64,000 nt of DNA from an uncultured Latescibacterota bacterium (GTDB lineage: Bacteria > Latescibacterota > UBA2968), in NCBI GenBank assembly GCA_951812755.1, contig OX638329.1:2155339-2219338 (forward strand), in the 5' to 3' direction. The notes beneath the pieces were generated by a model. It was not told where the DNA came from and searched no databases. It saw nothing but the letters and a program-made list of their open reading frames with translations. How positions within the stretch are numbered: position 1 is the first letter of the stretch; the number at the start of each line of letters is the position of its first letter. The position numbers and the translations under genes were made by a program. Positions 3,459 through 52,083 of the stretch are shown here, piece after piece.

Positions 3459-3489
3459 CTGATTTACGATAGGCAGAATATAATGTGCC

Positions 3490-3609: not shown

Positions 3610-3655
3610 AAAACCCAGACCTGCGTAACATCAGTCAATAATTGGAGGAACAGCA

Positions 3656-16282: not shown

Positions 16283-16298
16283 CGGACATCCCATCTAT

Positions 16299-16340
16299 AA
16301 AAAAGCCCCCGGTGCCATTGAGGCGTTGGGGGCTTTTGTT
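16299..16340. terminator. Bidirectional rho-independent terminator
   Basis: AAAAGCCCCC and GGGGGCTTTT form a 10-bp stem with a 17-base loop. A-runs on one side and T-runs on the other make it usable from both strands. It sits between the convergent ends of the GH32-like gene and the AlbA_2/GHKL gene. Confidence 0.9.
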
Positions 16341-16357
16341 GTTATCCCGTGTCACCG

Positions 16358-30545: not shown

Positions 30546-30674
30546 AATTTTGAGTCCATTACCCACCATCAAGAGATGTCAAAATAGTTGGTTTCAGACA
30601 ATATCAAGCAAAAAATCCCTTGAAACAAGGGATTTAATACAGCATTAATCTTTTGCTAATATCGAAATCAGACA

Positions 30675-32450
30675 TCAATTTTCCAATAGGGCGAGACGTT
30701 CAGGGGATTTTGCCTCTCCCAATTCACGGTTTGGCTTATCGACGCTATGCTGGTCTTGAAACAGCCGCCAGCAAACGCCGCGTTTTTGCATCAGTTCCTC
30801 AGGGGTTCCCTGTTCTGCGATTTTGCCATCTGACAGGCAAATCACTTCCTCGACCTTTTGTATCGTGGACCAGCGATGGCTGACCACGAGAATCGTCTTG
30901 TCTCGATAATGTGAACGCAACAAGTCATATATAACGCCTTCGCTCTCGGAATCGAGTGCTGAGGTCGCCTCATCGAGCAGTAGAATATCACCCTTTTTTA
31001 GCAATAAACGGGCAAGTGCGATGCGTTGCTGTTGACCGCCAGATATTTTCGTTCCCTGGTCACCAACAGGAGTATCCAGGCTGAGATTTTCAAAACTCAT
31101 AGCATTGAAAACACTTTCAACCGACTCAGCACTAATTTCCGAATTGCCATAAGAAATATTGGTCCGGATGCTGTCGTGGTAGAGCAAGGGTGCTTGTGTG
31201 CCATAAGCTATATGGTTTCTCAGGTCATGTATATCCATGTCCTGAATATTAACACCGTCAATGGCGACACGGCCATTCTGTGGCTGGACAAATCCACACA
31301 GCAAATGGAGCAATGTCGTTTTACCACATCCGCTTGGTCCGATCAATGCGTAAGACTTTCCTTTCACTAATTCCAGATTCAAATTCTCAACAATTTTTTC
31401 CTTTTCATAAGCGTAGTGAACATCCTCAAACCGAATGCGATTTTGAAGCGCAAAGGGCTGGGCCTGGGGATTAGACTTTGAAGATGCCGCGGGAATTTCC
31501 ATCAGGTCTAATATGCGACGCATGGAAACGGTGGTTCGTACATAGTTGACGTACAGGCCGTTTAAGCTCTGAATCGGCGAAAATATGCGGGAAAAATACT
31601 GGAGAAAGGCAAAAAGACTCCCCAAACTCATGGTGCCCATTATAACTTGATACCCCCCAATGAGTAAGATCGACGCAGGGACCGCGGCGCGAACTCCGCC
31701 AGATATCGTACCCATGGAAGCAGAATAAAAGACATTTCTCAAATTTAGGCCCATCAGTGTAGATAGCCTCTTGTCTAAGATATTCTTTTCAATCCCATAT
31801 CCATTGTGAGACTGAATCAGTAAAACGCGGCTCAATCGCTCGACAAAGAAACTGAGCAACTCAGACCGCTCCTTTTGGCGTTCTTCTGTGACATTTTTAA
31901 TTTTGGGACGAAAGTAAATCAGGTTGGCAATAAAGATAGGGGCTGCAATCAAACACAGGAGGAAGAGTTTGACATTCAAATAGGCCATAATTGTCGATAG
32001 CCCCAATAGCATCAGGCAACTGTGTAAAAAATTGAATGCACTTGAGGTTAGAAAGTTTTTGATGATACTGATGTCGTTGTTGATCCTGTGTACCAGATCA
32101 CCCGTCTTTGTTTTTTGATGAAATTCAAAAGGGACATAGAGGAGGTGTTCAAAAATTGTACTCCGCATGTCATTGACGACCCGGTTATTGATCCAGTTAT
32201 ACACATAGTACGATACAAACGACAGGATCAAATTGAGACCCGTGATCCCCAGCAATATGCCGACCAGCGTCACCAAATACTCATAATCTTGTGTTGGCAG
32301 TGCTTCATCAACAATAATTTTAAAAACATAAGGGAACACAAGCGATGTTGCGATCCCTACCAGCATAAAGGCGAGGACAATCAGGCCATAAGGCCAGTAG
32401 GGAATGACAAATTTCAAAAAGAATGCGATCATGTCTTTGTTTTTTTTCAT
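30675..32450 (-). CDS. ABC exporter, fused permease and ATPase
   Basis: This 591-residue half-transporter has six N-terminal TM segments starting at residue 9 and an ATPase domain with Walker A GPSGCGKTTLL, Q-loop CGFVQPQNG, signature ISGGQQQRIALARLLL, Walker B DILLLDEATSALDSESEG and H-loop VVSHRWSTIQ. It dimerises to export lipids, drugs or peptides. There is no C39 peptidase domain at the N-terminus, so leader removal, if it exports a peptide, must happen elsewhere. It lies between a thiol-redox gene set and the RND operon, consistent with a role in secretion. Confidence 0.92.
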   Translation of the reverse strand: MKKNKDMIAFFLKFVIPYWPYGLIVLAFMLVGIATSLVFPYVFKIIVDEALPTQDYEYLVTLVGILLGITGLNLILSFVSYYVYNWINNRVVNDMRSTIFEHLLYVPFEFHQKTKTGDLVHRINNDISIIKNFLTSSAFNFLHSCLMLLGLSTIMAYLNVKLFLLCLIAAPIFIANLIYFRPKIKNVTEERQKERSELLSFFVERLSRVLLIQSHNGYGIEKNILDKRLSTLMGLNLRNVFYSASMGTISGGVRAAVPASILLIGGYQVIMGTMSLGSLFAFLQYFSRIFSPIQSLNGLYVNYVRTTVSMRRILDLMEIPAASSKSNPQAQPFALQNRIRFEDVHYAYEKEKIVENLNLELVKGKSYALIGPSGCGKTTLLHLLCGFVQPQNGRVAIDGVNIQDMDIHDLRNHIAYGTQAPLLYHDSIRTNISYGNSEISAESVESVFNAMSFENLSLDTPVGDQGTKISGGQQQRIALARLLLKKGDILLLDEATSALDSESEGVIYDLLRSHYRDKTILVVSHRWSTIQKVEEVICLSDGKIAEQGTPEELMQKRGVCWRLFQDQHSVDKPNRELGEAKSPERLALLEN

Positions 32451-32566: not shown

Positions 32567-33055
32567 CTAATCGTGAAAGGATGCTGTAGGAGCGGCATCC
32601 CTGCCGCGATCACTTAGACTCTGCCAATACTCATCGAGAGAAAATGGAATCTTCTGTTTCCAAAAGAGCACCAGAGCAAACGAGAGCAGCAACACATCCT
32701 GCAATAAAACCCATTCCATAGAAGCGCGTTCAGTGCCAAAGCCAAAGCATCCGCAGGACATATTTACGCCCTGATAAATTTTAGTGCCTAATGCACTGGC
32801 AAAGGCAATAAGCAGTCCCGAAGCGATGAGCGTGCTCGCGTGCGTCCAAAATCCCACGATCAAACACAGGCCGATGACGCATTCGAGATAGGGCACCAAT
32901 ATTGTGACGGGAAGAATCAGAAACTCGGGCAGCAGATTATACGCCCGCACGGCATAAGAGAATAACTCGAGGTCCGGTATTTTAACGACGCCAGCCCATA
33001 AAAATACGCCTCCCAAAATGAGGCGCATCATGACTTGTATGAAAGAGAAGAACAT
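32567..33055 (-). CDS. MauE/DoxX-like redox-associated membrane protein
   Basis: This 162-residue membrane protein has four hydrophobic segments, with GGVFLWAGVVKI in the first and a C-G-C motif in NMSCGCFGFGTE between the third and fourth. That matches the MauE/DoxX group linked to periplasmic disulfide chemistry. Its ATG shares one base with the rhodanese stop (TAATG). The last residues (DRGRDAAPTAS) are encoded by a REP-like palindrome at 32584-32612, so the tail may be a late addition. Confidence 0.82.
   Translation of the reverse strand: MFFSFIQVMMRLILGGVFLWAGVVKIPDLELFSYAVRAYNLLPEFLILPVTILVPYLECVIGLCLIVGFWTHASTLIASGLLIAFASALGTKIYQGVNMSCGCFGFGTERASMEWVLLQDVLLLSFALVLFWKQKIPFSLDEYWQSLSDRGRDAAPTASFHD
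32584..32612. repeat. REP-like palindrome inside a coding tail
   Basis: TGTAGGAGCGGCATCCC followed by TGCCGCGATCA is typical of short bacterial palindromes, and the core GCGGCA/TGCCGC is self-complementary. It overlaps the 3' end of the MauE-like gene and is related to the GGATCGCGGC repeats of this window. Confidence 0.6.
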
Positions 33056-33501
33056 TACTGATCTTTCTCAACTGCAATGGGAAACTTCGCTTTCTCCCAG
33101 GCGGGAAAGCCTTCTATGAATACGTACACGTTTCTATGATCGCCCAGGTAGTCTTTTGTCCATTCTGCAATTTTCAAACTGCTCTGACAAGTCGCTCCAG
33201 AGCAATACACAATCATGGTGGCACTTAGTGGGATATTTAACAAAACAATTTTCTGTTTTTCAAAATTTGAGATAGACAGATTGATGGCTCCCGGTATGTG
33301 ACCTATAGCGTATTCCCGATGAGACCGCGCATCGAGAAATACCACGCCCTGTTGGTCAAAAAACCATCTTGCTGCTTGTAGGGAAATGGGCGGAATATCT
33401 TTGGAATGAAACAGGTGATCCGTATTCTGAAAGCTGAGGCTTCCAATACTGAGGAGAGACGAAAAGGCGACCAATATGCCCATTTTTAGGAAATTACGCA
33501 T
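33055..33501 (-). CDS. Secreted rhodanese-like protein
   Basis: This 148-residue protein has an N-terminal signal or anchor (FLKMGILVAFSSLLSIGSLS) and a rhodanese domain. FLDARSHREYAIGHIPGAINLS precedes the active-site loop YCSGATCQSS with a Cys at the catalytic position. ATG 33501 with AAAGGG upstream is preferred to a TTG that overlaps the preceding stop. It probably handles sulfane sulfur or acts as a periplasmic thiol carrier with the neighbouring thioredoxin-like and MauE proteins. Confidence 0.85.
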   Translation of the reverse strand: MRNFLKMGILVAFSSLLSIGSLSFQNTDHLFHSKDIPPISLQAARWFFDQQGVVFLDARSHREYAIGHIPGAINLSISNFEKQKIVLLNIPLSATMIVYCSGATCQSSLKIAEWTKDYLGDHRNVYVFIEGFPAWEKAKFPIAVEKDQ

Positions 33502-33539
33502 AGTCCCTTTTGGTGTCTTCTTTGGATTTGCATAGTATT

Positions 33540-34238
33540 TCAAGATTCATCATAGTCCAGATTTACCATCTTGCCTTTGAGCTTGAGCCAGGCCGCCACT
33601 TTTTTCTTAAAACTTTCTGGCCCAACGCGATCGCCAACCATTCCGAGGTGTGCGTATATAATTTTGCGCGTTCGTTTTTCATAAAAGAGCAAGGTCGGTG
33701 TATGTATAATATTCAGATGCTCGAATAGCGAAGGCTCATTTTCGTCGTGATAAATAGGCTGTTTCCACAGACCGCCAAGTTCTCTTTTAATTTTTTCTTG
33801 CGTCGTCTGTGGGGTAATTTTGGCTATGGCGACCACATCGAGATGTTCTGAATTGTGGGTGTAAAACTTTTGCCATAAGTCCAACTCGGTCTCCAAACAG
33901 GATGAACAATCATTTTTCGTAAAAAGAATCGCAACAGCGTAATCCGTTTTTTCCTGGGGATTTCTTCCGGCTGTTGAATCGCGGGTCACGATTTTTAAAG
34001 CAGTTTCTGACAATTTCATCGTTTCCAGCGTTCTGTGGTGCATGCCCAGATTCTTAACATAATTATACCTTTCTACAATAGGTGAATACTCTGTAAGCAA
34101 TGCCTTGCTTTTGCGATATTCGACAAACAAGATAACTGTCATGATTGCCCAGCCCACGAGAATCAGGCTTCCCAAACTGATCATTATCTTTTTGGGTATC
34201 GGCAATTTTAAGGGGCTGTAATTTGTGGTTTTGTCCAT
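33540..34238 (-). CDS. Membrane-anchored thioredoxin-like protein
   Basis: This 232-residue protein has a TM anchor at residues 18-37 (ISLGSLILVGWAIMTVILFV). A thioredoxin-like fold follows with active site DCSSC and the cis-Pro region HTPTLLFYE. It is probably periplasmic and reduces or isomerises disulfides. ATG 34238 has AAAGAG upstream; the longer in-frame extension lacks support. It lies in a tight run with rhodanese and MauE genes and just downstream of a Cys-rich peptide locus, which suggests it works on the peptide's cysteines (inference). Confidence 0.83.
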   Translation of the reverse strand: MDKTTNYSPLKLPIPKKIMISLGSLILVGWAIMTVILFVEYRKSKALLTEYSPIVERYNYVKNLGMHHRTLETMKLSETALKIVTRDSTAGRNPQEKTDYAVAILFTKNDCSSCLETELDLWQKFYTHNSEHLDVVAIAKITPQTTQEKIKRELGGLWKQPIYHDENEPSLFEHLNIIHTPTLLFYEKRTRKIIYAHLGMVGDRVGPESFKKKVAAWLKLKGKMVNLDYDES

Positions 34239-34309
34239 AAATCGCTCTTTCAAAATAGATTCAAACTGAAGTTCTATCGTAATGTCCAATATATCGCAAC
34301 GATTCCTGA

Positions 34310-34400
34310 ATCTATGGTCTTGTGGTTGCTGAGACAAACCTTATGAATATCATTTTCTGCCACACATATCTATTTTGTACACTCAAATGTATTTTTATTG
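34310..34400 (-). repeat. Decayed duplicate of regulator 3' end, copy B
   Basis: ACAAACCTTATGAATATCAT, then TTCTGCCACACATATCTATT and TTGTACACTCAAA, matches 36706-36764 with only scattered differences. The match covers the last codons and stop of the AraC-type gene plus its 3' flank. Confidence 0.75.
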
Positions 34401-34892: not shown

Positions 34893-36092
34893 CTATTTCC
34901 TTGAGCTTTCTTCCACAAGGCGATACTTCCCAATAACGTAGTTATCAGGCGCATCGTTTTCGATACAATAGATCGCACCAGCAGAATCCATATCCATTCT
35001 GACATACGTTGGCTGTTCTTCGCGGTCCGGAAATCGCATATCGGATAGGATATTTTGTCCTGAATCATAGTCAAAGAGATTTAAGAAATAGGAGCGTTCC
35101 GGTGGTCCTCCTCGAAGTGTTACTTGTTGCTGTAAAACGAGCAAGATTGAATGCGCTTCGTCAAATAGGACATCCGATATAGAAGTTTCTACACGGGGAT
35201 TTTTCCGAAGTTTCCTAATCCTATCCCGAATGCTTGCAGCGGTTGGTCTTTGCTGTTGACCAATATTCCCTTTTTTTTCTCTAAATTTGGGTTTGGTAAG
35301 AGCCGTTCTCACATCAATGGTTTTCTTGATGGCTTGACGACCCTGATAGGCAACCACAATAGGCGTATTTCCTCTCCAAAGATATGTTATGTTAGGAATA
35401 GCAACACGGAATTGGGCAAACGAAAACTCGTACTCGCGCAACAGTCTTTCAAGTTTATCACCCACGACCTCTTGATTGTACGGTGCAAAATAAGAAAGCA
35501 CATTGCCAAGCGTGTCAAACTCACATATTGTCCAAGGATAACTATTTTCTTGTATTTGTTTTTTTGGTGCTTCAGATGATTTATGGCAAAGCAACAGGGT
35601 CCTATCCGACGTAATGCTTATAGAGTTTCCCGAAGGAGCGGACGCTTTGGTGTGGGCTCCATAGGAGTTTAAAAAGGCACCTGAACTATCAAACAGTGTA
35701 ATGCGACGTCTGGCTTGGTCAAAACACGCAATTAAACCATCTCTTACATCCATGGTATATAACTGACGAAACTCACCCGGTCCGCCGCCCTGTCGTCCAA
35801 TGATGCGAATGAATTGGCCTTCTGACGTAAAGACCATGATTCTTTTTTGACTGGTATCCATCAGATAAATACGATCCTGGTCAATGCGAAGGCTTTTGTT
35901 CACGCCAATAGGCACATCAGGATCTTCAACGAGTAGAATTTCTGAGATCTTTTGTAGCGCGAATTTCTTGTCCTGATTAGATGGCTTCGTTTGAATGTCG
36001 GCTTTAGGCACCTCGGCCACAGCAGGGGCTTGCTCAGACTGACAGCCCACCGCCAACGCACAGATCAAAACACAGACTGTCCATTTTGTCAT
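34893..36092 (-). CDS. 6-bladed beta-propeller lipoprotein
   Basis: This 399-residue protein has a lipoprotein signal (TKWTVCVLICALAVGC) with lipobox LAVGC, so it would be anchored to a membrane. Propeller-blade motifs follow: DRIYLMDTSQKRIMVFTSEG, then GQFIRIIGRQGGGPGEF and RRRITLFDSSGAF. GGAG upstream favours ATG 36092. Similar 6-bladed propeller lipoproteins sit beside Cys-rich small peptides, thiol-redox genes and ABC exporters in Bacteroidetes. Here too it lies between a Cys-rich peptide gene and such genes. Its role could be peptide binding or immunity. Confidence 0.82.
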   Translation of the reverse strand: MTKWTVCVLICALAVGCQSEQAPAVAEVPKADIQTKPSNQDKKFALQKISEILLVEDPDVPIGVNKSLRIDQDRIYLMDTSQKRIMVFTSEGQFIRIIGRQGGGPGEFRQLYTMDVRDGLIACFDQARRRITLFDSSGAFLNSYGAHTKASAPSGNSISITSDRTLLLCHKSSEAPKKQIQENSYPWTICEFDTLGNVLSYFAPYNQEVVGDKLERLLREYEFSFAQFRVAIPNITYLWRGNTPIVVAYQGRQAIKKTIDVRTALTKPKFREKKGNIGQQQRPTAASIRDRIRKLRKNPRVETSISDVLFDEAHSILLVLQQQVTLRGGPPERSYFLNLFDYDSGQNILSDMRFPDREEQPTYVRMDMDSAGAIYCIENDAPDNYVIGKYRLVEESSRK

Positions 36093-36222
36093 TTTACGCT
36101 CCATTATGAAATTTCTCGTGAGCCTTTGTAGTAAGGAATACAAGTATTGCAATATTGCCTCAAAATAACGAATAATCAACCAAAATATAGCGGGAGGGGA
36201 TCGCCATCGATGATTAATATTG

Positions 36223-36259
36223 AACAGGACAACACACTTTTTGAATGCGTTGTCCTGTT
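36223..36259 (-). terminator. Hairpin after the Cys-rich peptide gene (copy A)
   Basis: AACAGGACAACAC and GCGTTGTCCTGTT form a 13-base-arm stem with one mismatch around an 11-base loop. It lies 60 bases after the peptide stop and before the propeller gene, and is near-identical to the hairpin at 34577-34613. It could dampen read-through so that the peptide is made in excess. Confidence 0.6.
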
Positions 36260-36318
36260 GTCTAATTCCAATGAATGGTATTCCGTGAAGTTGATTCAGC
36301 AATTTCCACTATGAATCA

Positions 36319-36546
36319 CTAACACCATTGGTCAGTGCCATCAGACTCCAAGAGACAATCTCCTGCTCCGTGTTCGTGCCAACAATCGCTATTATCATGG
36401 CAATAGGCATCAGTAGTCCAATGAGAAGACCACCTGGGATTACCATAAAGGTCATCATCTTCACTTTGCGCATCCGGAGCTTCATAATCATACGCGAGAA
36501 CAGCATTTGCAGCTTCGCGTTGGGGTTTGTGCAACGTGATCTTCAT
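36319..36546 (-). CDS. Small Cys-rich peptide, candidate natural-product precursor
   Basis: This 75-residue peptide has an excellent ribosome site (AAAAGGAGA) before ATG 36546. The N-terminal half is leader-like (MKITLHKPQREAANAVLAYD) and then acidic (SEDDDLYGN). The C-terminal half is rich in Cys, His, Trp and Asp, with Cys at 49, 55, 64 and the very last residue 75 (YCHDNSDCWHEHGAGDC, then a tail ending QWC). No signal peptide is seen. It is flanked by an AraC-type regulator and by redox and export genes, with a subtilase one gene further upstream. A disulfide- or otherwise modified secreted peptide is the best guess; a small metal-binding protein is the alternative. Confidence 0.75.
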   Translation of the reverse strand: MKITLHKPQREAANAVLAYDYEAPDAQSEDDDLYGNPRWSSHWTTDAYCHDNSDCWHEHGAGDCLLESDGTDQWC

Positions 36547-36651
36547 CTGAGATCTCCTTTTATTGTGTTTCAAGAACCCACGTGGATGGCGGCTGTATAG
36601 TCAGCAAAATGCCTTGACTAAACAATCACGCAGTTCCTTGTGATTAACAAC

Positions 36652-36672
36652 CTCGATGCACTCTGCATCGTA
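36652..36672. promoter_or_regulatory. Short perfect palindrome upstream of the peptide gene
   Basis: CGATGCA and TGCATCG are separated by CTC, a compact inverted repeat about 110 bases before the Cys-rich peptide start. It could be an operator for the adjacent AraC-type regulator, or a hairpin ending that regulator's transcript. No T-run follows it. Confidence 0.4.
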
Positions 36673-36705
36673 ACTTGATCTAAAGATATGGCCTTGTGAT
36701 TGCGA

Positions 36706-36764
36706 CGACAAACCTTACGAGTATCATTTTCTGCCACCCGTATCTATTTTGCACACTTAAACAC
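36706..36764 (-). repeat. Regulator 3' end and flank, copy A of the duplicate
   Basis: ACAAACCTTACGAGTATCAT followed by TTCTGCCACCCGTATCTATT is the intact counterpart of the segment at 34310-34400. It spans the stop codon of the AraC-type gene. Confidence 0.75.
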
Positions 36765-37598
36765 ATCTTTTGCTGCAAAACCGGTCACAGAGCTGTTGTC
36801 GTATCGGAAGATTCTCTTTTGTAATGAATTGGGGCGCATCAGGTGTTGAGAGGAATTTAATTTCATAGAATGATCAGACAAATTGTATGCCAACCAATCT
36901 GTCTTTTCTAAGGATTTTCGATACTGATCTGGAGACATATTTGTAAACTTAAAAAAGACTCTGATCAGGTGGTTGCTGTTTGTAAATCCACATTTGTCGG
37001 CAATTTCGTAAACCCGGTCTTTGGTGTCGGCAAGATGGCGTTTGGCTTCTTCCACACGATAAAAGGATAAATACTTGTGAAAGGACATCCCGATATGTTC
37101 GCGGAACAACCGCGTCGCATAGCTCGATGAAATCCCGAAATGATCGCACAATGTGCTCAATTTCAAGGATGGGTTTGTGAACTGGTCTCTCAAAAAACCA
37201 TCTAATTTTGAAGCCCAAACAGAGTGGGATTTTCTTCTTAAACCTGTGATCATCTGGAGTTTCTCTAAAAAGAACGAAATATTTTCTCCGTTTAGAGTAT
37301 AGTAATCAGCCCCCAAATACATGGCGTCAACAGCCAGAGTCGTATTATCCTCGCCCCAAATAATCAGTTTCGATCTCTTCGCTAATTTCCTGATCTGAGC
37401 GACTTGCCCAATACTATCGAGTAAATCCGTTGAAATACAGAGGACCGAGGGTCTCATTTCCTTCAAACAATCCCAAAGCCTGTTCTTGTTATCTATGAGT
37501 TCGATTATTTCGGCTTCAAAATTTTTCTCAATTGCAGAACGCATTTCTGATAGAAAAACAGAATCGGCACAGGCCAGAACGATTGATTGACGTGGCAT
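36744..37598 (-). CDS. AraC-family regulator with a degenerate receiver-like N-terminus
   Basis: This 284-residue protein has an N-terminal alpha/beta region like a response-regulator receiver, but without the acidic pair (ACADS) and with no clear phospho-Asp (CISTDLLDS). The AraC DNA-binding domain (residues 130-230) has two helix-turn-helix units: SLKLSTLCDHFGISSSYATR and YEIADKCGFTNSNHLIRVF. The C-terminal 50 residues are unusual and unassigned. It lies between the subtilase fusion and the Cys-rich peptide gene, whose promoter it probably controls. It is a paralogue of the regulator at 42250. Confidence 0.82.
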   Translation of the reverse strand: MPRQSIVLACADSVFLSEMRSAIEKNFEAEIIELIDNKNRLWDCLKEMRPSVLCISTDLLDSIGQVAQIRKLAKRSKLIIWGEDNTTLAVDAMYLGADYYTLNGENISFFLEKLQMITGLRRKSHSVWASKLDGFLRDQFTNPSLKLSTLCDHFGISSSYATRLFREHIGMSFHKYLSFYRVEEAKRHLADTKDRVYEIADKCGFTNSNHLIRVFFKFTNMSPDQYRKSLEKTDWLAYNLSDHSMKLNSSQHLMRPNSLQKRIFRYDNSSVTGFAAKDVFKCAK

Positions 37599-37617
37599 TC
37601 ATCCCTCCCCAATGCTG

Positions 37618-39471
37618 CTATTTTGAAAAATAGTCCACGATGATTTTGAATAACCGCTCTTGATCTCTGTCAGATAAAATTTGTATTGCTGGCAAGTTGA
37701 AAGACTCTGTTAGCCGTTTGAGATGCGAATTTATTTCTTCTTGTGATAGCTCACTCGTCGTCACAAGGCTTCTGCCATAAGCTGTGCGGACATGCTTTTC
37801 TTTGTCTCCCATGGCGAGAGCCAGAGTCGGTGCTTTGCTTATGGCGCGTACGCCATCTATCGTGTCCTGGATGTATTCATCGGTATCAATGCTGTTGACC
37901 ACGAGAACACACGCATCTGGTTTGACACCGAGGAGAAAAGCAAGTGAAGATAGAGAATGTGTATTGTGATCATATACGTCATAAGGTATGGTGCCGGACT
38001 GCGAACCCGTGATGATAATCTCGGGTTGCTTGTGGTGATTGATTTCGCGCATCTTGAAATCCAAAAACGGAACATAAGATTGCTGGGGCATTTTGAGTGT
38101 TGATCCATATCCCATAGGAAAGGCAAAATCCATTCCGAACAATTCCGAGTGGTGTTCAGTCCCTATCTGAGCCACTTTGTAATCGGCCTTTAAGAATGAC
38201 CGACGCAAAGCCATCTGCAACGTAAATTTGCCCTGTTGAGAACTCGTACCCATCACAGCGACTATAGGCGCATCCACATTGGGGTAAAGATCATACGCCT
38301 CTTGGGAAGCAACGATTTCGTCAAAACCAATATGTGGAAATACGATAGATCGGTTGTCCTGTTCAGCCAATTGATATAAGTCTCGATAACGGTCCGGATT
38401 TACTGCCTGAAAACTGAAAATATTTAGACCTACTTCCAATGCCATCTCGATCAGTTCTTTCAGTAAATCCCGCTGTTGTATCCGCATTAACTGATCCACA
38501 TAGCCTAAAATAAGTGTATCTCCTTCGCGCAATGCCTCAGACAAATTGGGTTGAATACGCAGCCCGCACGGTTGTTCCCCTATGACCACGCCCGCATCTT
38601 TTCCGACCAATCCCTTTGCTACTGGATCGGCCACAGCAACAATCTCAAATGGCAGCATGTCGCGGTAGCGCACCAGAGAATGCATCTCTTTATTGTAGGG
38701 ATATAAGACCGCCCTTTTTACCCAACTGTAATCTTTGTCAAGAGATCTCTGCCTCCGTAGGGACCGAACAACCTGCGAATCAGATGGTGTTTTCTCTGCA
38801 TTCTCAATGAGAATTTGCCGGATGTCAGATAACGATCGCCCGGGATTTTCCTGAAGTAATCGCCCTACAATCCCTGTAATATGGGGTGCTGCGAAGCTGG
38901 TTCCATCGCTGATGATTTCCTTGCCATCCAACCAGCAAAGCCTCTGTTTATTTCCCCTTGCAACAAATTCAATAGCCTGAGCATCTTGGTAAAGGTAGGT
39001 ATCTGGATGGTAGATATCCCCTCCTCCAACACCTATGACCTCGGGGAAAACAGCCGGATAGCATTCAAGACCCGCATTGTGCTCGGCAGCAACAACGATC
39101 ACCCCGGCTTTAAATGCTCGAAAGCACACATCTCGAATCCGCTCTTTATAGGATACATCTGTCGAACCCAGGCTCAGATTCAAAACATCCATTTTATTCT
39201 CAATAGCCCACTCAATCGCCGCAATTAAAACATCACCATGAGCAGAGAGCGACGGATCAAAAATCCGAATGCTGTACAAATTAGCATCGGGAGCCTTCTT
39301 CCGAATAATGCCTGCACAGGCAGTTCCGTGACCCGCACAATCTTCATAGTCACCAGAATGAATAATATTTCCCTTTTCATCCAGTGACAAATTTACACCA
39401 CCGGCAACCGTTCCTATACCAGGGTGAGAACTTTCAATACCACTATCAACAACAGCGATTTTTACACTCAT
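37618..39471 (-). CDS. Subtilase (S8) fused to a DUF1611-like Rossmann/P-loop module
   Basis: This 617-residue fusion begins with a subtilisin-like peptidase (residues 1-240) whose triad is visible: Asp in AVVDSGIESSHPG, His in CAGHGTACAG and Ser in DGTSFAAPHITG. It has no signal peptide or prodomain, as in intracellular subtilases. Residues 265-400 are Rossmann-like (DPVAKGLVGKDAGVV). Residues 410-617 form a P-loop domain with GTSSQQGKFTLQ, resembling the C-terminal part of DUF1611 proteins such as DgcN, which acts on D-glutamate. In this locus it could trim a peptide leader while the second module drives an ATP-dependent step. That role is inference. Confidence 0.85.
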   Translation of the reverse strand: MSVKIAVVDSGIESSHPGIGTVAGGVNLSLDEKGNIIHSGDYEDCAGHGTACAGIIRKKAPDANLYSIRIFDPSLSAHGDVLIAAIEWAIENKMDVLNLSLGSTDVSYKERIRDVCFRAFKAGVIVVAAEHNAGLECYPAVFPEVIGVGGGDIYHPDTYLYQDAQAIEFVARGNKQRLCWLDGKEIISDGTSFAAPHITGIVGRLLQENPGRSLSDIRQILIENAEKTPSDSQVVRSLRRQRSLDKDYSWVKRAVLYPYNKEMHSLVRYRDMLPFEIVAVADPVAKGLVGKDAGVVIGEQPCGLRIQPNLSEALREGDTLILGYVDQLMRIQQRDLLKELIEMALEVGLNIFSFQAVNPDRYRDLYQLAEQDNRSIVFPHIGFDEIVASQEAYDLYPNVDAPIVAVMGTSSQQGKFTLQMALRRSFLKADYKVAQIGTEHHSELFGMDFAFPMGYGSTLKMPQQSYVPFLDFKMREINHHKQPEIIITGSQSGTIPYDVYDHNTHSLSSLAFLLGVKPDACVLVVNSIDTDEYIQDTIDGVRAISKAPTLALAMGDKEKHVRTAYGRSLVTTSELSQEEINSHLKRLTESFNLPAIQILSDRDQERLFKIIVDYFSK

Positions 39472-39502
39472 GGCAATCTTCTTTCGATAAGCAAGGACGC
39501 AG

Positions 39503-40549
39503 TTATAGACCTTTTGGGGTTGGTCTTATCCCGGAATGCTTTTTCTGAATCCAATCTACAAACTTCTCGGAGATTGCGAGAAAGCGATTTTCTATGAGAT
39601 CGTTCACACTCGTCAGTTCCCTGGCGGTTTCCCGCATAATGCTGAGTTTAGGGTTTTCCTCCAAAACTTCCAGATATTGTTTATACTTTTCAGAATTTTT
39701 ATAGTAATTCTCTTCTCGCACGACCCTTTTCACAAATTTAATAAAATCATCAGCAAATTTGTAATGATAGAGAACCACGCTAATATCTGCAATCAATGCC
39801 GATTTGACCTTGTGAGAGGAATACCACATTGGCTTAATTTTGCCATCACAGAAGATCAAAGGGGTTTTTGTCAATCTGTCATAAGTATTGAAGAGTGTAT
39901 CGCGGATTCCGCCTCGATAATCCGCGATCCGAGGGTTGGTAATTTTGTTATGTGGGCAAAATTCCTCAAAATTTAGGTTTTGAATTCCAGTAATATCGTA
40001 ATAGCGGTATATGTTTTTTAGGTCTTCATCCGCATTAGCCATTTCGTCTAACCGTCCATCTGAAAACATGTCTAACATATAAGCCACAACCGCTGTAAAG
40101 GTGTTGGCATTTAAGTACTCGACAAACTCACCCAAAGTTAAAATGTCAGAAAAAGGAAAGTCGAATAATTCATCTATGTCCGCACAGAGAGACCATCTGT
40201 GCTCACCGAAACGTCTGATAAGAAACTGTTTCATCAGAAACTTATAATTCTTGAAAGGCAATGTTGTCTGTAACACTGTAATATTCTCATAGGGCTTCGC
40301 GATCTCAATGGTATCGTCTATGGAGTTATTGTCGAGCAATACAATATGTTTAAATCCCATCGCAAGATAATGCTCCATAAAAGACTGAATATATACTCTT
40401 CCATCCCGGACGACACAGAGCGCAATTAACTCATTCCTGTCGTATTGGACTTCCTTAGGGCCGTATATATGTTTAACATTTCCCAAGAGGTCTCCCATTT
40501 TTTCAGGGCCGTACACATTGGGATCAGCGGTGTCAATGTACTTTTCCAT
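39503..40549 (-). CDS. Glycosyltransferase family 2/92-type protein
   Basis: This 348-residue protein has the GT-A pattern of the Glyco_tranf_2_4 group. LIALCVVRDGRVYIQSFMEHYLAMGF is followed by IVLLDNNSIDDTIEIA and the metal-binding ADIDELFDFP motif. A C-terminal region with HYKFADDFIKFVKR completes it. ATG 40549 is preferred to a GTG nine codons upstream, though the ribosome site is weak for both. It has no membrane segment. Placed between the subtilase fusion and a protein of BtrH/C39-like look, it may glycosylate the product or a surface polymer. Confidence 0.8.
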   Translation of the reverse strand: MEKYIDTADPNVYGPEKMGDLLGNVKHIYGPKEVQYDRNELIALCVVRDGRVYIQSFMEHYLAMGFKHIVLLDNNSIDDTIEIAKPYENITVLQTTLPFKNYKFLMKQFLIRRFGEHRWSLCADIDELFDFPFSDILTLGEFVEYLNANTFTAVVAYMLDMFSDGRLDEMANADEDLKNIYRYYDITGIQNLNFEEFCPHNKITNPRIADYRGGIRDTLFNTYDRLTKTPLIFCDGKIKPMWYSSHKVKSALIADISVVLYHYKFADDFIKFVKRVVREENYYKNSEKYKQYLEVLEENPKLSIMRETARELTSVNDLIENRFLAISEKFVDWIQKKHSGIRPTPKGL

Positions 40550-40589
40550 CCTGTGTATTCTTTCTTTTTTAGGCACAATTTCATCTCGG

Positions 40590-41615
40590 TCAGCGACAAA
40601 CTGCCTCGAGTTTGTTCAACAAATCCTGAAGCAGACCGCGTTCCTCTTCGGCGAGAGCATCCAAATGCGAACACATGCGGCGGATGAGGTCCGGGTTGCG
40701 CGTCTTTCTAAATTTGAGCAACATCATGCGGATCATTCCGGCCTTGCGCGCCAATTCATCATATTGAACCGAGAGCCCCTCTTCGAGCTTTATATAGCCA
40801 TGCGTTTCCATGTATTTGAGTCTTTCAACCATGCATTTTTTGTGCTCCCACAGGATGTGTACTGGACGAATGTCAGAAGAGAATGGTGGCGACAAAAAAG
40901 ACGCAAGAAAATGCTTCAAGCACTCATAAGTCGCCAGGCCATAAGCTCCGTCTGTGGGATTTGCAAGCATGCGAAAGCGTTCGGATGTATTGCGCGAAGA
41001 GAGGAAGTCCTCGAGGTGTTCGCACACCAGGCGGATGTCAAAATCGTATTGGGCATGCGGGTCATATTTGAATAACCGCAATCCATCTGGATCGTAATGA
41101 CCTGTCAGGTTGGCATGCAAAACCGCCTGTTCCAACTCGGAAAACGCGATGGGATAGGCGGCGTAATCTCCCTGTTTGTTGTAACCGATGCCGATAAAGG
41201 TCTGCTTATCATAGCCGTAGATGAGGGTTTCGTGAATAAACTGTCTTTTGCGATACGCAGGACTGTCGGGCAGGAAATATTCATCTACGGCCAATCGGAC
41301 GTAATAGCCTTTGTCAATACAGGCGATGATGAATGGCACAATATCTGTCGGAGATTTGAAGACCAGGTCTCTGTTCAAAATCTGAACTTTTAAATAGGGA
41401 GAAATGGTAAATCGTTGATCGGGGCTGCGATAGAAATTGAACTTTACTGTTCTGCTGTGCCTGCTATCTAGGAGACTGTTCGGACAGTGGAGCTGGATGT
41501 AATGGCTATACAACCATGGCAGATACGTCGTCGAGTGGGCGAGGATAGTGAGTGGATAGGCGTGATGTAAATAGCCAATGATGGGCGGCGTAGCAATGGG
41601 CAATATGTTTTTCAT
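40590..41615 (-). CDS. Uncharacterised protein, possible BtrH/C39-like fold
   Basis: This 341-residue soluble protein has an N-terminal half reminiscent of the BtrH N-terminal/papain-like group found in antibiotic clusters. Segments are GYLHHAYPLTILA, a central YYVRLAVDEYFLPDSPAYRKR and HETLIYGYDKQTFIGIGYNKQG. The nucleophilic Cys expected in BtrH is not obvious. The C-terminal half (150 residues) is helical and Arg/Leu-rich. An acyl carrier protein gene lies 174 bases upstream. In butirosin synthesis, BtrH moves an acyl group from carrier BtrI to its target, so an analogous acyl transfer is possible. The call is tentative. Confidence 0.5.
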   Translation of the reverse strand: MKNILPIATPPIIGYLHHAYPLTILAHSTTYLPWLYSHYIQLHCPNSLLDSRHSRTVKFNFYRSPDQRFTISPYLKVQILNRDLVFKSPTDIVPFIIACIDKGYYVRLAVDEYFLPDSPAYRKRQFIHETLIYGYDKQTFIGIGYNKQGDYAAYPIAFSELEQAVLHANLTGHYDPDGLRLFKYDPHAQYDFDIRLVCEHLEDFLSSRNTSERFRMLANPTDGAYGLATYECLKHFLASFLSPPFSSDIRPVHILWEHKKCMVERLKYMETHGYIKLEEGLSVQYDELARKAGMIRMMLLKFRKTRNPDLIRRMCSHLDALAEEERGLLQDLLNKLEAVCR

Positions 41616-41789
41616 AGTTTGTCTAAAGTCCTCTGATCAGATCACGGGTTGTAGCAGGTATTAAGAAAGTCACCGTTCAGATTTCCGATATTAAGGCCCG
41701 GAGGTCGGGACTTTGAAGACAGGAGTCAGATGATATGTTTGAACCTAATAGCCCGGTTCAGCCCGTGCCGCCCAGACGTTTTTGTTCAT

Positions 41790-42035
41790 TCAGGATATTT
41801 TGGATTTGATGAACTCAGCAATGCTGTTTACGGTCTCAAAAACATCCATGATTAACTCTTCATCAGATATTTCGATCCCAAAAGCCTTTTCAAGGCCAAC
41901 GATCACTTCCATCAGTGCCATAGAGTTCCCACCTAATCCTTCACCAAATAACAGATCATTATTGTCCATTTCATCTGGCGCAATACTGAGCTCCAGTGAA
42001 TCAATAATTACTTTTTTTACCTTTTCTTTAATCAT
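41790..42035 (-). CDS. Acyl carrier protein
   Basis: This 81-residue protein has the four-helix carrier pattern. The phosphopantetheine site is G-G-N-S with Ser38 (GEGLGGNSMALMEVIVGLE), and an acidic helix follows (GIEISDEELIMDVFETVNSI). GGAAGAG precedes the ATG. It is not in a fatty-acid operon: no ketosynthase, malonyl transferase or fabG is near. It heads the gene run containing the BtrH/C39-like protein, glycosyltransferase and subtilase fusion. It probably carries an acyl or aminoacyl group for that pathway. Confidence 0.88.
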   Translation of the reverse strand: MIKEKVKKVIIDSLELSIAPDEMDNNDLLFGEGLGGNSMALMEVIVGLEKAFGIEISDEELIMDVFETVNSIAEFIKSKIS

Positions 42036-42249: not shown

Positions 42250-42930
42250 CTACTTTTTTCGATATGTGGTCGGACTAACCCCATACGTCTCTTTGAAAAC
42301 CTTGCTAAAAGTCGATAAAGATGTAAACCCACACAGGTAAGCAATTTCTGAAAGAGTATGTGATGTGTCCTTCAACGCTTCCTCTGCCTTTGTTAGGCGT
42401 ACATTCCGAAGGCACATCCTGAACGGCATTCCCAGGTGCTTCTTAAACAATTTATGTCCATAGCTTTCCGAGAACCTGAAATAGCGCATGACCTCTTCAA
42501 ATCTCAGCTTTGGATTGCTGTAATTCGCCTCCAAAAATGATTCCAACCAGGTCTTCCAAATATCTTGCGAAGGCATATATTTTTTCACTCTCGCCAAAAA
42601 CACATCTTTCTCTATAGGTTTATCAAATACACTCACTGCGCCGGCCTTGATCACCTCCGCGCCCAATTCCATGTTTCCCAAATCTGTCATGATCAGCATA
42701 ACCGTTTGAATTTTCTTCTCCTTCACACGCTTCAACAGAGTAAGCCCATCCATACCCTCTATACCCATCTCGACGACGGCAAGGCCGACTTCCTCTTTTC
42801 TTAAAATTTCAAAACCTTCTATCCCATTTCTCGCGGTGAATATCTCATAAGGTTCATCTCTCAAGAATCCTACAAGCTCTGATATTACAAGTGGTGCATC
42901 ATCTACAATCAAAATTTGCTGCTTGTCCAT
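42250..42930 (-). CDS. Response-regulator/AraC protein with Glu at the phosphorylation site
   Basis: This 226-residue protein has a receiver domain with an intact acidic pair (LIVDDAP), the conserved Thr (MLIMTD) and the conserved Lys (FDKPIEKD). The phospho-accepting Asp, however, is Glu54 in AVVEMGIEGMDG. Glu there mimics phosphorylation, so the protein may be permanently active. The C-terminal AraC domain has KLRFEEVMRYFRFSESYGHK and LSEIAYLCGFTSLSTFSKVF, ending in SPTTYRKK. No sensor kinase gene is nearby. It faces the ACP-led gene run and is a likely regulator of it. Confidence 0.9.
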   Translation of the reverse strand: MDKQQILIVDDAPLVISELVGFLRDEPYEIFTARNGIEGFEILRKEEVGLAVVEMGIEGMDGLTLLKRVKEKKIQTVMLIMTDLGNMELGAEVIKAGAVSVFDKPIEKDVFLARVKKYMPSQDIWKTWLESFLEANYSNPKLRFEEVMRYFRFSESYGHKLFKKHLGMPFRMCLRNVRLTKAEEALKDTSHTLSEIAYLCGFTSLSTFSKVFKETYGVSPTTYRKK

Positions 42931-43252: not shown

Positions 43253-44164
43253 CTAAGGAGCATCGAATGTAATTCCGATTGCCGCCGAAATTGGACCCGA
43301 GCGTCGATTGAAGACAGTAAACAGTCCTTCATCATTTCTACCTTGGGCGATATATCCTTCTTCACACGTAACAAAAAGATGTGCAACAAAATGTTCTAAA
43401 CGCCATCCAACTTCAGGTTCTGTCGCATTGTACGGTTCTGGAAGCCCGATCTGCAGGTCTCCATAACATGGCACGCGCGGGAAAACAAAACTTCGGAGTG
43501 CTTGTCTAACCGACTCTGATCTGACGATACGACAACCAACTGTGTTTGGGCCTCGGGGGTTCCTTGTAGTAGTTCGTGGAACATTGTAGGAAGAGGGGAC
43601 GCGTAGTGGATGATAGAACATATAGTGGACAGGAATTCCTGTGCTATTTTCATATTCCTCTATGCGTTCATACTGATCGTCACCCTTCCGTAGGGCCTTA
43701 TATTCACTTGTTTGTTTGAATCTAAACTTCCGTGGCTCCGAGACAGCGAGATGGGTTTCCTCTGACTCGAATAGACGTCCAAATCCTCTGAGATAGTCTA
43801 AAGACTGATCCTCATCAAAGTCCACTTCCGTGGGATAAAGTCGCTTGGACTGGAGAAGCGCGACCTTGCTTCGGACGAGTTGCCCCGCGTGCCGAAACAT
43901 CACCAAAAAGCCGATATCGGCAATTTCCCAAGATCCAAAGTGCCGTCCACCTCCGAGATAATGCGTGTCAAGCCGAACTGTCCATCCAGAATCGAGCCTT
44001 ACGGGGACCGAATGGTTCGAAAGTTGTTCAATGAAAGTCATGTCCAGAGAAGTTTCATGAATATTTGGCATTTTAGAGATTTTTCTTGATACGGCAAGGT
44101 TACAGGCTTTAAAAATATTCTCTAAAAATAACAGAACATCGTCAGGTAGATAGATTCGATTCAA
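43253..44164 (-). CDS. Uncharacterised protein with PD-(D/E)XK-nuclease-like pattern
   Basis: This 303-residue protein has an N-terminal pattern that fits a PD-(D/E)XK core. Glu37 lies in HETSLDMTFIE, Asp83 in WEIADIGFLVMF, and Gln105-x-Lys107 in ALLQSKRLYP, as in Mrr-type nucleases, which use Gln before Lys. The second half (YMFYHPLRVPSSYN, HFVAHLFVTCEEG) is unassigned. There is no signal or membrane segment. It is followed by a terminator and preceded by a KTSC-like small gene and a patatin. A nuclease effector in a defence island is possible, by pattern only. Confidence 0.6.
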   Translation of the reverse strand: MNRIYLPDDVLLFLENIFKACNLAVSRKISKMPNIHETSLDMTFIEQLSNHSVPVRLDSGWTVRLDTHYLGGGRHFGSWEIADIGFLVMFRHAGQLVRSKVALLQSKRLYPTEVDFDEDQSLDYLRGFGRLFESEETHLAVSEPRKFRFKQTSEYKALRKGDDQYERIEEYENSTGIPVHYMFYHPLRVPSSYNVPRTTTRNPRGPNTVGCRIVRSESVRQALRSFVFPRVPCYGDLQIGLPEPYNATEPEVGWRLEHFVAHLFVTCEEGYIAQGRNDEGLFTVFNRRSGPISAAIGITFDAP

Positions 44165-44305
44165 TTTAGGCTCCTCAAAGTCAATGCATTCCGTCCGGGC
44201 AGGCCGCAGGCCATCCTCTCACGTCATTTCCTGACCGAATGGCCTCACACCTGAAGACCCAACTGGTCTCGGATGCTCTGGATTTTGATATATCAAATTT
44301 TGTTC

Positions 44306-44533
44306 TCAGCGGAGCTTCCTGGCGTATCTTTTTCTAACACGATGATTGATGAAACTGTTCAGACCCTCGCCAGCAATAGCCAATCGCTTCATGCGCTCAA
44401 TATTAGCCCTACCCGCACTCTGATACGTATAGAGATAAACAGATCTATCACTAAACTTCACCGTGATTGAGGTAGGTCCTATCTCGTAGGCCACGACTCC
44501 AGAATCGCCGCCTCTGTTTCTATAGCGTTCCAT
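44306..44533 (-). CDS. KTSC-like small protein
   Basis: This 75-residue protein has the pattern VVAYEIGPTSITVKFSDRSV, then YLYTYQSAG and LNSFINHRVRKRYARKL, which resembles the KTSC domain (a small beta domain with a C-terminal basic helix). ATG 44533 follows the patatin stop by 11 bases with GAGG upstream. A start at 44569 overlapping the patatin gene is possible. KTSC proteins are often linked to phosphatases or nucleic-acid enzymes, but the function is unknown. Confidence 0.65.
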   Translation of the reverse strand: MERYRNRGGDSGVVAYEIGPTSITVKFSDRSVYLYTYQSAGRANIERMKRLAIAGEGLNSFINHRVRKRYARKLR

Positions 44534-44543
44534 ATATTCATCC

Positions 44544-46337
44544 TCATCGCCGATCCTCTGAAGAGGCATCGTTTGTGGTCCAGTGAATGGTGTGGTCCTT
44601 ATCGGTCAGTGACTGATAGTCCTTGTGATCCCATCGCCTGACCATCCGTCGCATCGCCACGTACGTCAGAAACGCAACAACATAAAGCCAGAAAAAAATC
44701 CAGACTATGTCCGTTAGCACTTGGGTGTCCAAAGGGAAGCTACAATTCTCGACGACTTTCTCTAAAACCCACTGTAACCAGTCGGGTATTACAAAGGATA
44801 ACCATCTCTCGACCTGCGAGGTGAAAGCGCGGAGCAACTTCAAAAAGTTCTGAACGGCCCCCACCCCCCAGCCCCAACCATCAAGCAACAATAACAGGGC
44901 AGACCCAAAGATCCCCAATGATTTCTTGGGATGCTTTCGCCACGAACGACATAAGAACACACGACCGCTCCCAGCTTTCAACACATCCTTTACGCGCTTT
45001 CGATGCTTGGTTTCGCTGACGCACTGCTCGGCAGCCTGGTCTGAACTTGGCCGGTCAAGAAAGAGAGGAGGTTGTGCCAACTCTGGTACATCACCGGTCT
45101 TGTTGCCGATGACCGCCTTCAACCTTTCACAATACTTTTGGATCTGCGCGTCAATGAGAGTATAGCCGTGATACATCAAGACTTCCCGTTCGATAAAACC
45201 AAACTGGTCCAGATCAGTTCGGATCCCACCCAACGCGGGAATGTACTCGGAAGGTACGCGCGGCGTGTTGGGCCTGTCCTTGAGGTTTAAAAACAAATGC
45301 ACAAACGCAAATTCGCGACTGCTGCGGTTGTTTCTCTGCCACAAACGGAGGAGCTTAAGCATTTTTCTCCGAAGCTGGAACTGAAAAATGGAAAAGGTTC
45401 GGCCCATAACGGCGAAGGCCCGATTTCCTTGTCGATGAACTGGCTCCATCTGTCCGGAGGCATCACTGACGAGCAGGACATCGAAATCGTCACAGTCTGA
45501 CTCCGCGTTTTTCTCACAGTCACAATCTGGTGTGTCATTCTTGTCGTCATCCAATAAGCGATCAACGCTGATCAGAGCATCTATTCCCTGGTTGTCTGCG
45601 ACGCCTCCATCTACAAGCTTGTCTCCCCATATTGTCGTAGGGGGAAACAGGCCAGGTACTCCGGAAGATGCTCCTACAACCCTCGATAACTTCAACGTAT
45701 TCTGATTTACACGATGAAGCTCTTGCAGGCGGGATACCGGATCTCGGCTGAACCCTATTTGCTCACCTGTAAGCAACGATGTCGTGTTCAGTACAACCTC
45801 CGGTCCAGCGAAGAAAAGAGGGATCTTCTCTTCTTCGGAACGTGCATCGTTGTCGCGCAAAGTGACTGAGGGCAAATGATCCAGCGTTTCGTCGTGATAA
45901 AACCACTTGTCGTATTCTTTCTGCATTATGTCAGAGCGAGAACAAGAGGGCCACAAGCTCTTGAGAAAGAGAATTGGATGGTAGAATGGACCGAACACCA
46001 TCGCCCTTGACCGCAGGTTGTGGTCAAGAGCCTTGAAAAAGCAGTCGGCGATTTCCTCGAATATCTGAAGCCGGACCTCGTCGAGTTGGTCAGGATTATC
46101 TGCCAACTCTTCTCTGCGCTGACGCAGACGCTTCTCCATCTCGATTACGTAATAGGCTGCTATGATTGAGCCACCCGAGACAGCAGAGATCGTATGGACG
46201 TACTTCATGATCCCGAGTTCTTCGAGTCGGCGAATCACTCCCAGGTGGAAGATCGAAGCCCGAAACCCGCCGCCAGAAAGAGCAAGACCAATCCGGGTGG
46301 GTTTCAAAGTGGCCTCATCCTTTAATGTGTCGTTCAT
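44544..46337 (-). CDS. Patatin-like phospholipase with C-terminal membrane segments
   Basis: This protein of about 597 residues has a patatin domain with oxyanion loop GLALSGGGFRASIFHLGV, nucleophile Ser in SAVSGGSIIAAY and catalytic Asp in KLVDGGVADNQG. A Cys-containing insert lies near residue 280. The C-terminus has two hydrophobic segments (LGIFGSALLLLLDGW and DIVWIFFWLYVVAFLTYVAM), so it sits in the membrane whose lipids it would cleave. GAAGGA supports ATG 46337; another ATG is 17 codons upstream. Patatins are known effectors in anti-phage systems, but no nucleotide cyclase is found here. Confidence 0.85.
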   Translation of the reverse strand: MNDTLKDEATLKPTRIGLALSGGGFRASIFHLGVIRRLEELGIMKYVHTISAVSGGSIIAAYYVIEMEKRLRQRREELADNPDQLDEVRLQIFEEIADCFFKALDHNLRSRAMVFGPFYHPILFLKSLWPSCSRSDIMQKEYDKWFYHDETLDHLPSVTLRDNDARSEEEKIPLFFAGPEVVLNTTSLLTGEQIGFSRDPVSRLQELHRVNQNTLKLSRVVGASSGVPGLFPPTTIWGDKLVDGGVADNQGIDALISVDRLLDDDKNDTPDCDCEKNAESDCDDFDVLLVSDASGQMEPVHRQGNRAFAVMGRTFSIFQFQLRRKMLKLLRLWQRNNRSSREFAFVHLFLNLKDRPNTPRVPSEYIPALGGIRTDLDQFGFIEREVLMYHGYTLIDAQIQKYCERLKAVIGNKTGDVPELAQPPLFLDRPSSDQAAEQCVSETKHRKRVKDVLKAGSGRVFLCRSWRKHPKKSLGIFGSALLLLLDGWGWGVGAVQNFLKLLRAFTSQVERWLSFVIPDWLQWVLEKVVENCSFPLDTQVLTDIVWIFFWLYVVAFLTYVAMRRMVRRWDHKDYQSLTDKDHTIHWTTNDASSEDRR

Positions 46338-46493
46338 ACTGATCCATCCTTCACTGTAATGATGGACTTGCTTCGTTTTGGTAGACATTATACCGCTTAA
46401 GAGAAAGAAGGTTTAAAATGCCACCAACCTTTCCTCAACGAGTTCAATCAAATCGTTATTCGCAACCGGGAATTACTGCCCTTAATTTGAAAA

Positions 46494-47393: not shown

Positions 47394-47495
47394 TTCTCAC
47401 TTCTCTGCGTAAGGCGCGTAGTAACCGGACAATCCCTTGCTGTTTGCCGCTATTTCTCTATTACTTAAAACGTTTAAAATACAGCATATCCCGCT

Positions 47496-51817: not shown

Positions 51818-51840
51818 AAACGCACTCCTCAGAATCAAAA

Positions 51841-52029
51841 TCACTTATCCTGCTCATCAGCCTGATCAAAATCGTCCCAATCGTCATCATCGGGAAAAGG
51901 CACGAGAGGAACAGCAAAAGAATAGGGATCACAGAGCATTTCAAAACTATTCACAGTCTGATACGTACGAATATCACCTTCAGTACCCATCGTTCCATTG
52001 ATCAAAGTCAACTTGCGTCGGGTCGTCAT
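51841..52029 (-). CDS. Candidate RiPP precursor peptide
   Basis: This 62-residue peptide has a strong ribosome site (AAGGAGGA) before ATG 52029. The leader is basic then polar (MTTRRKLTLINGTMGTEGDI). The core-like part has a single Cys33 with aromatic and Pro residues (EMLCDPYSFAVPLVPFP), and the tail is Asp-rich (DDDDWDDFDQADEQDK). It ends 24 bases before the maturase start and is driven by a sigma-54-type promoter. The single Cys would suit a thioether crosslink. The product is not similar to one I recognise. Confidence 0.8.
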   Translation of the reverse strand: MTTRRKLTLINGTMGTEGDIRTYQTVNSFEMLCDPYSFAVPLVPFPDDDDWDDFDQADEQDK

Positions 52030-52083
52030 GTTATCCTCCTTCAATATAAAGATTTAAAATGCTGTCACTATCTGTCCTCTATA

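Follow-up and report, generated by a model that had tools for sequence, protein, structure and literature searches.

Related clusters and the Latescibacterota locus

A TIGR04066 protein, an acyl carrier protein (ACP), a subtilase and an ATP-binding cassette (ABC) transporter occur together with a radical S-adenosylmethionine (SAM) enzyme in the clusters of SacP23 from Paenibacillus polymyxa (PMC10731318) and of Roseburia intestinalis L1-82 (PMC4573289). SacP23 is the only purified product of a TIGR04066 and ACP cluster found in the literature searched; it had a blocked N-terminus, and its authors proposed an immunity role for TIGR04066 (PMC10731318). TIGR04066 and TIGR04069 are annotated in databases with peptide maturation, but no reaction is known for either. 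The subtilase QhpE cuts the 28-residue leader of QhpC in the cytoplasm before ABC export (PMC7876137), and CcbD forms amides from carrier-bound acyl groups via Cys-His-Glu, with Asp114 and His131 in its active site (PMC12945683). Here we analyse a peptide cluster from an uncultured bacterium of the Latescibacterota, which are noted for unexplored biosynthetic potential in sponges (PMC9426513). The cluster occupies 42035 to 22876 (minus strand) of a 64,000-nucleotide stretch of contig OX638329.1 (the window; positions 2,155,339 to 2,219,338, assembly GCA_951812755.1). The window is part of a single-contig genome of 6.53 Mb, and its relatives are Candidatus Latescibacterota metagenome-assembled genomes. 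Our literature search found nothing that links TIGR04066 with Latescibacterota.

The genes run in the order ACP, BtrH-like protein, GT2 glycosyltransferase, subtilase-P-loop fusion, AraC-type regulator (AraC1), 75-residue peptide, beta-propeller, thioredoxin-like protein, rhodanese, MauE-like protein, ABC exporter, HlyD adaptor and two resistance-nodulation-division (RND) permeases. An earlier reading of the sequence alone (the sequence-only reading) had noted the peptide, fusion, glycosyltransferase, BtrH/C39-like and ACP genes as co-directional, with thiol-redox, ABC exporter and RND genes downstream, and gene calls, domain matches and motifs agree with it. It also had two AraC regulators bracketing the set, which they do not, because AraC1 sits between the fusion and the peptide. 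Its statement that no pathway with this set is described is partly wrong: TIGR04066, a TIGR04069-type ACP, a subtilase and an ABC transporter are known together from the SacP23 and Roseburia clusters, although with a radical SAM enzyme, which the window cluster lacks. We put at about 0.6 the probability that the cluster as a whole matures and exports a peptide of the ribosomally synthesized and post-translationally modified (RiPP) type, with leader cleavage, ACP-dependent tailoring and export. The RiPP reading taken alone is highly likely. Two features by which RiPP systems are recognised are present: a conserved leader before a variable core, and a precursor gene that stays close to genes for maturation and export in many genomes. 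Covalent modification of the core and removal of the leader, which also mark RiPPs, are predicted.

One leader precedes unrelated cores

The precursor gene (36319-36546, minus strand) starts with an ATG at 36546, directly downstream of an AAAGGAG ribosome-binding site. As the sequence-only reading had it, the peptide has 75 residues and four Cys (at 49, 55, 64 and 75). Its leader covers approximately residues 1-19 and ends in VLAY, and the core, approximately residues 20-75, holds all four Cys. Across the family, leaders of about 19-29 residues follow the pattern M-x-L-x-K-[PR]...[hydrophobic]-x-[AG]-Y, in which Lys7 and Tyr19 (window numbering) are invariant. The cores behind this common leader are Cys-rich in the window and in related loci L004, L005, L056 and L085, Gly/Ala-hydrophobic in L006, L008, L053 and L069, and acidic and Ser/Thr-rich in L007, L014 and L050. 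The description of the precursor as Cys-rich thus fits the window core but is not a family trait, while the conserved leader and variable core that an alignment of homologues had been expected to reveal were found.

A leader model gave 33 matches in 60 genomes and the window's own; 31 of these lie within about 10 kb of a fusion gene, a linkage that is partly circular as the model was seeded from fusion loci, and the other two sit on contigs of 3-4 kb. The independent evidence is therefore the near absence of matches elsewhere, together with a cross-phylum test. In this test, a leader model from four Bacillota precursors adjoining TIGR04066 and radical SAM genes was searched against 10,634 open reading frames (ORFs), and three Latescibacterota precursors ranked right after the model's own members (2.5e-4, 6.8e-4 and 1e-3). 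Leaders of the MQKLVKR type were found at 2.5e-4, while the window's KPQR type was reached only via intermediates. We also considered the peptide as a named toxin or a member of another known family, and rejected this because it has no family match and its leader is found almost only with the fusion.

Near-identical cassettes show where the sequence varies. The cassettes of L004 and L005 closely match that of the window, with protein identities of 93-94% for the fusion, 94-95% for the ACP, 93-96% for the rhodanese, 90-91% for MauE, 85-87% for the thioredoxin-like protein, 85-88% for AraC1 and 93% for the ABC exporter (L005). The BtrH-like protein (71-72%), the propeller (40-41%) and the core (27-37%) are less conserved. 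DNA identity between the cassettes is 85-90% in the 197-nt region 5' of the peptide, 70-89% in the leader and 46-50% in the core, which is about the level of shuffled sequence (45.6%). Moreover, the glycosyltransferase position in L004, L005 and L008 holds a different, GT28-type enzyme. The core and propeller therefore form a variable module, to which the BtrH-like protein and the glycosyltransferase belong less strictly. Strict co-variation of these two with the core is true of the window against L004 and L005, but L008 has a similar glycosyltransferase and BtrH-like protein and an unrelated hydrophobic core 6 kb off, so we keep it as a suggestion only.

Two loci add further precursors. L085 (G040 C42) is a single 12-kb locus with four precursors whose near-identical leaders (MKKLTKRNRKHNRK...GY) precede differing Cys-rich cores, a natural combinatorial array. 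In L005, a second, shorter precursor with the same leader (15166-15330) is followed by an IS3-like transposase and then by a second propeller (15377-16383).

The fusion and its linked genes

The fusion (37618-39471, minus strand, 617 residues) joins a QhpE-like subtilase (residues 3-226; PF00082, 2.5e-28) to a TIGR04066/DUF1611 P-loop domain (residues 252-616; DUF1611, 8.7e-11). Residues 4-226 match NF049966 (QhpE) with 147 bits against a curated cut-off of 165, and the TIGR04066 model aligns along its whole length to residues 252-616, with 128 bits against a curated cut-off of 200. The subtilisin triad (D9, H48, S192) is intact, as is the P-loop (GTSSQQGKFT from residue 408). In an alignment of 20 fusion homologues the triad and P-loop residues G408, G414, K415 and T417 are invariant. 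The protein has no signal peptide, and its catalytic domain begins at residue 3. Its AlphaFold model (predicted local distance difference test, pLDDT, 86) has subtilisins as Foldseek matches, while the C-terminal profile matches the DUF1611 structure 2g0t (E 4.2e-5). For this reason we dropped the roles of H+-ATPase subunit and immunity protein from the SacP23 paper. A literature search on DUF1611 and DgcN returned unrelated papers only.

TIGR04066 matches were found in 34 of the 60 Latescibacterota relatives, mostly in ORFs of about 620-690 residues and with up to six copies per genome. In Bacillota, the family occurs in five of 398 genomes, as a separate protein of 365-403 residues in the six full-length cases; one Erysipelotrichaceae locus (L017) also has the fused form, adjoining a radical SAM gene. 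A plasmid search gave partial matches in the subtilase region only, none of which covers 80% of the query.

We compared gene content at the fusion locus of the window and at 43 further ones from Latescibacterota. An ACP gene lies within 2.5 kb of the fusion in 29 of these 44. The remaining 15 include six loci that end a few bases from the fusion gene, three with an ACP 4-5 kb off, and L081, which has an adjoining ACP-like ORF. BtrH-like genes are present at 13 of the 44 loci and glycosyltransferase genes at few. Among the 43 other loci, L081 alone has a radical SAM gene nearby; no TIGR04068 maturase was found in the window cluster or near the other 42. In L063, L065 and L068, HlyD and two RND permease genes also follow the cluster. 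Chance does not account for an arrangement that is repeated in so many genomes. The gene-neighbourhood prediction of the sequence-only reading is thus upheld: the parts co-occur, the leader is nearly confined to fusion loci, and with the leader and core family this sustains the reading as a peptide system.

A second copy of the system in the window's own genome (L066, about 6.337 Mb) looks decayed. Its subtilase is continuous with a C-terminal piece of an ABC transporter (735 residues); a leader-type peptide is kept, the ACP is absent and only a C-terminal BtrH remnant is left.

The stand-alone ACP (41790-42035, minus strand, 81 residues) has its attachment site at Ser38 and matches PF00550 (4.4e-11) and, below the cut-off of 70, TIGR04069 (31.6 bits). 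The adjacent BtrH/CcbD-fold protein (40590-41615, minus strand, 341 residues) gives a partial BtrH_N match (23.3 bits, cut-off 29.7). Its low-confidence model (pLDDT 58) has AziU3 (3.4e-4) and CcbD side by side as top Foldseek matches. It keeps D111 and H128, spaced as are Asp114 and His131 in CcbD; among homologues H128 is invariant and D111 nearly so. A sister group, BtrHc (L010, L013, L016 and L081), has a Cys at the expected place that is missing in the window clade, and its profile also matches AziU3 (3.7e-5). The proposal of a BtrH/C39-like protein agrees with the predicted fold likeness to AziU3 and CcbD, but not with the Pfam gathering score or the N-terminal Cys motif of the family, and its role as a simple BtrH acyltransferase is weakened by the absent Cys. 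The glycosyltransferase (39503-40576, minus strand) belongs to the GT2_4 family (PF13704, 2.7e-18; DxD at 133). In L053, a minus-strand ORF (3083-4435) next to a subtilase-TIGR04066 fusion encodes an ACP and a transglutaminase-like domain in one chain; the latter, too, is a thiol acyltransferase fold. What these loci have in common is a carrier protein paired with a papain- or transglutaminase-like protein.

Remaining genes of the cluster and its surroundings

All genes of this section are on the minus strand. AraC1 (36744-37598; HTH_18, 1e-22) is separated from the peptide gene by 197 nt, whereas gaps from the BtrH-like gene through AraC1 are 13-31 nt. The peptide gene is followed after 16 nt, counted from the listed TTG start, by a six-bladed beta-propeller gene (34893-36302; DUF5128, PF17170, 1.6e-13), whose real start probably lies further downstream. 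Next come a thioredoxin-like protein with a CSSC motif (33540-34337), a rhodanese-like protein (33055-33543; PF00581, 6.7e-15) and a MauE/DoxX-like membrane protein with a CGC motif (32567-33055; BT_3928 family, 41 bits, under cut-off). The ABC exporter (30675-32450; PF00664, PF00005) has transmembrane and ATPase parts and no C39 peptidase domain. An HlyD/RND adaptor (29301-30572; TIGR01730, 172 bits) precedes the two RND permeases (22876-29276, one at 26112-29276) by 24 nt. On the other side of the cluster lies a receiver-AraC regulator (AraC2, 42250-42930; PF00072, PF12833).

Upstream, a SPASM radical SAM maturase (50381-51844; SCIFF/QhpD/PapB-like, under cut-offs) and a short ORF upstream of it (within 51841-52044, internal ATG start) form a separate RiPP pair. 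The paired precursor, of 59-64 residues, follows the pattern MxTRRKLTL[IV]NG...C...VPxLxFPDDDDWDxFD, with a single conserved Cys and a tail rich in acidic residues. Nine loci have the pair, and one of them is a second copy in the window's genome (L136). Between this pair and the cluster, at 43253-49979, are a patatin-like phospholipase, two metallo-beta-lactamase (MBL)-fold proteins (one weakly 6A-MBL anti-phage-like) and other, unassigned genes, possibly a defence set.

A proposed pathway and its alternatives

We propose that the 75-residue precursor would be recognised via its leader of about 19 residues with the conserved terminal [AG]Y. In the cytoplasm, its core, the presumed target of glycosylation, would be tailored by the glycosyltransferase and by a group, probably acyl or aminoacyl, borne on the ACP. 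By homology to QhpE and its action on QhpC (PMC7876137), leader removal, also cytoplasmic, would fall to the subtilase half of the fusion. Next, the TIGR04066 P-loop half, the ACP and the BtrH/CcbD-fold protein would add the group to the product, most likely on the freed N-terminus. We consider the odds on this ACP-dependent capping to be even. A part for the ACP in capping or acylation is suggested by its tight link to the fusion, by the CcbD-, AziU3- and transglutaminase-like partners and by the blocked N-terminus of SacP23. The ABC exporter, which has no peptidase domain, and the HlyD/RND pair may carry the peptide out. The thioredoxin-like, rhodanese and MauE genes suggest handling of Cys oxidation and would set the Cys state, presumably as disulfides, outside the cytoplasm; the product is presumed to be biologically active.

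Several points weigh against this pathway. The linkage of leader and fusion is partly circular, as said above, and some fusion loci have no detectable precursor or BtrH-like gene. The window BtrH-like protein has no Cys before residue 44, so it lacks the N-terminal Cys nucleophile and cannot use the CcbD mechanism as known. Among the genes of the cluster, none was recognised as encoding an ACP-loading enzyme. No activity has been demonstrated for TIGR04066, and this half resembles the N-acetyltransferase DgcN only marginally (15 bits). Finally, the N-terminal block of SacP23 could stem from radical SAM chemistry or cyclisation.

The product might instead be a glycocin- or bacteriocin-like peptide, with glycosylation as the sole core modification and the ACP, BtrH-like and TIGR04066 set serving regulation, chaperoning or immunity. 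Unrelated glycosyltransferases fill the same position in sister cassettes, several sister cores resemble Gly/Ala-rich bacteriocins, and the immunity role put forward for SacP23 fits this account. However, most fusion loci lack a glycosyltransferase of these two kinds yet have an ACP, which places the ACP nearer the common core and led us to reject the glycosyltransferase as an essential part, and the catalytic P-loop and triad are invariant. We judge this alternative unlikely.

We think it rather improbable that the cluster is a plain CcpM or sactipeptide relative, in which a radical SAM enzyme encoded elsewhere in the genome (for example that at 50381-51844) makes thioether links and the ACP and BtrH-like protein are accessory. 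In Bacillota, clusters that combine TIGR04066 with this leader type also have an adjoining radical SAM enzyme, L081 unites radical SAM, fusion and BtrH-like genes, and in the window a SPASM maturase lies 8 kb upstream. Still, the rarity of radical SAM genes at the other fusion loci speaks against it. We rejected the window enzyme as the missing maturase, as it is not syntenic in L004 and L005 and comes with a conserved precursor of its own, whose leader is of another type. In a third alternative, as in small-subunit maturation of quinohemoprotein amine dehydrogenase, the peptide would partner the propeller within an enzyme or complex of the periplasm. This would account for the QhpE-like protease, the AraC regulator, the Trp- and Cys-containing core and the propeller gene that lies directly downstream and diverges together with the core. 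With no qhpA/B-like haem genes seen in the cluster, and sister cores that share no common sequence, unlike a conserved catalytic subunit, it has very little probability.

Within the preferred account of RiPP maturation with ACP-dependent tailoring, we tentatively advance a more specific proposal, on which we would put odds somewhat below even. The loci would form a distinct Latescibacterota RiPP class in which one common leader brings unrelated cores to an ACP-dependent machine. The fusion would cut the leader and, with the ACP and the Cys-less CcbD-fold protein, cap the new N-terminus in one coupled step that replaces radical SAM chemistry. A radical-SAM-free variant with protease and TIGR04066 in one chain makes the reaction testable in isolation. 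The family is large and unmined, with one leader and about 20 different cores, and a machine that takes unrelated cores behind one leader would be useful for peptide engineering.

Comparison with known systems

The fusion C-terminus shares its Rossmann-like and P-loop architecture with DUF1611 proteins (PDB 2g0t; DgcN), and differs in its fusion to a protease and its link with peptide clusters. BtrH (butirosin), CcbD/LmbD (lincosamides) and AziU3 (azinomycin) resemble the window protein in their carrier-bound-group fold family and conserved His and Asp; for the window protein the likely acceptor is a peptide rather than a sugar, and the window clade has lost the catalytic Cys. The Qhp system (QhpE subtilase, QhpC precursor) likewise has a cytoplasmic subtilisin-like leader peptidase, an efflux ABC exporter and an AraC-type regulator. 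In contrast to it, no QhpA/B/C/D/G was seen in the window cluster, the protease is fused to a P-loop domain and an ACP is linked.

The closest relatives are CcpM/CLI_3235-type clusters (TIGR04065, TIGR04066, TIGR04068 and TIGR04069), which have a TIGR04066-type protein, an ACP-like protein, a subtilase and an ABC exporter in common with the window cluster. In the Bacillota loci of the CcpM type that we examined, a short precursor is also present, and its leader (M-x-x-L-x-K...[VL]-x-A-Y) resembles that of Latescibacterota in length and motif. Unlike these clusters, the window cluster lacks the radical SAM enzyme (its SPASM enzyme scores 171 against a TIGR04068 cut-off of 500 and is unlinked to the cluster), has the subtilase and TIGR04066 fused, and has additional BtrH/CcbD-fold, glycosyltransferase, propeller, thiol-redox and RND genes. 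All its scores are under NCBIfam cut-offs, and Latescibacterota cores are not all Cys-rich. Without a radical SAM enzyme and with scores short of the curated cut-offs, the cluster is not assigned to CcpM/CLI_3235 here, but it is related to these clusters by common proteins and probably also by its leader. The window system is a radical-SAM-free, fused relative of CcpM/CLI_3235, with a CcbD/BtrH-fold protein and a glycosyltransferase.

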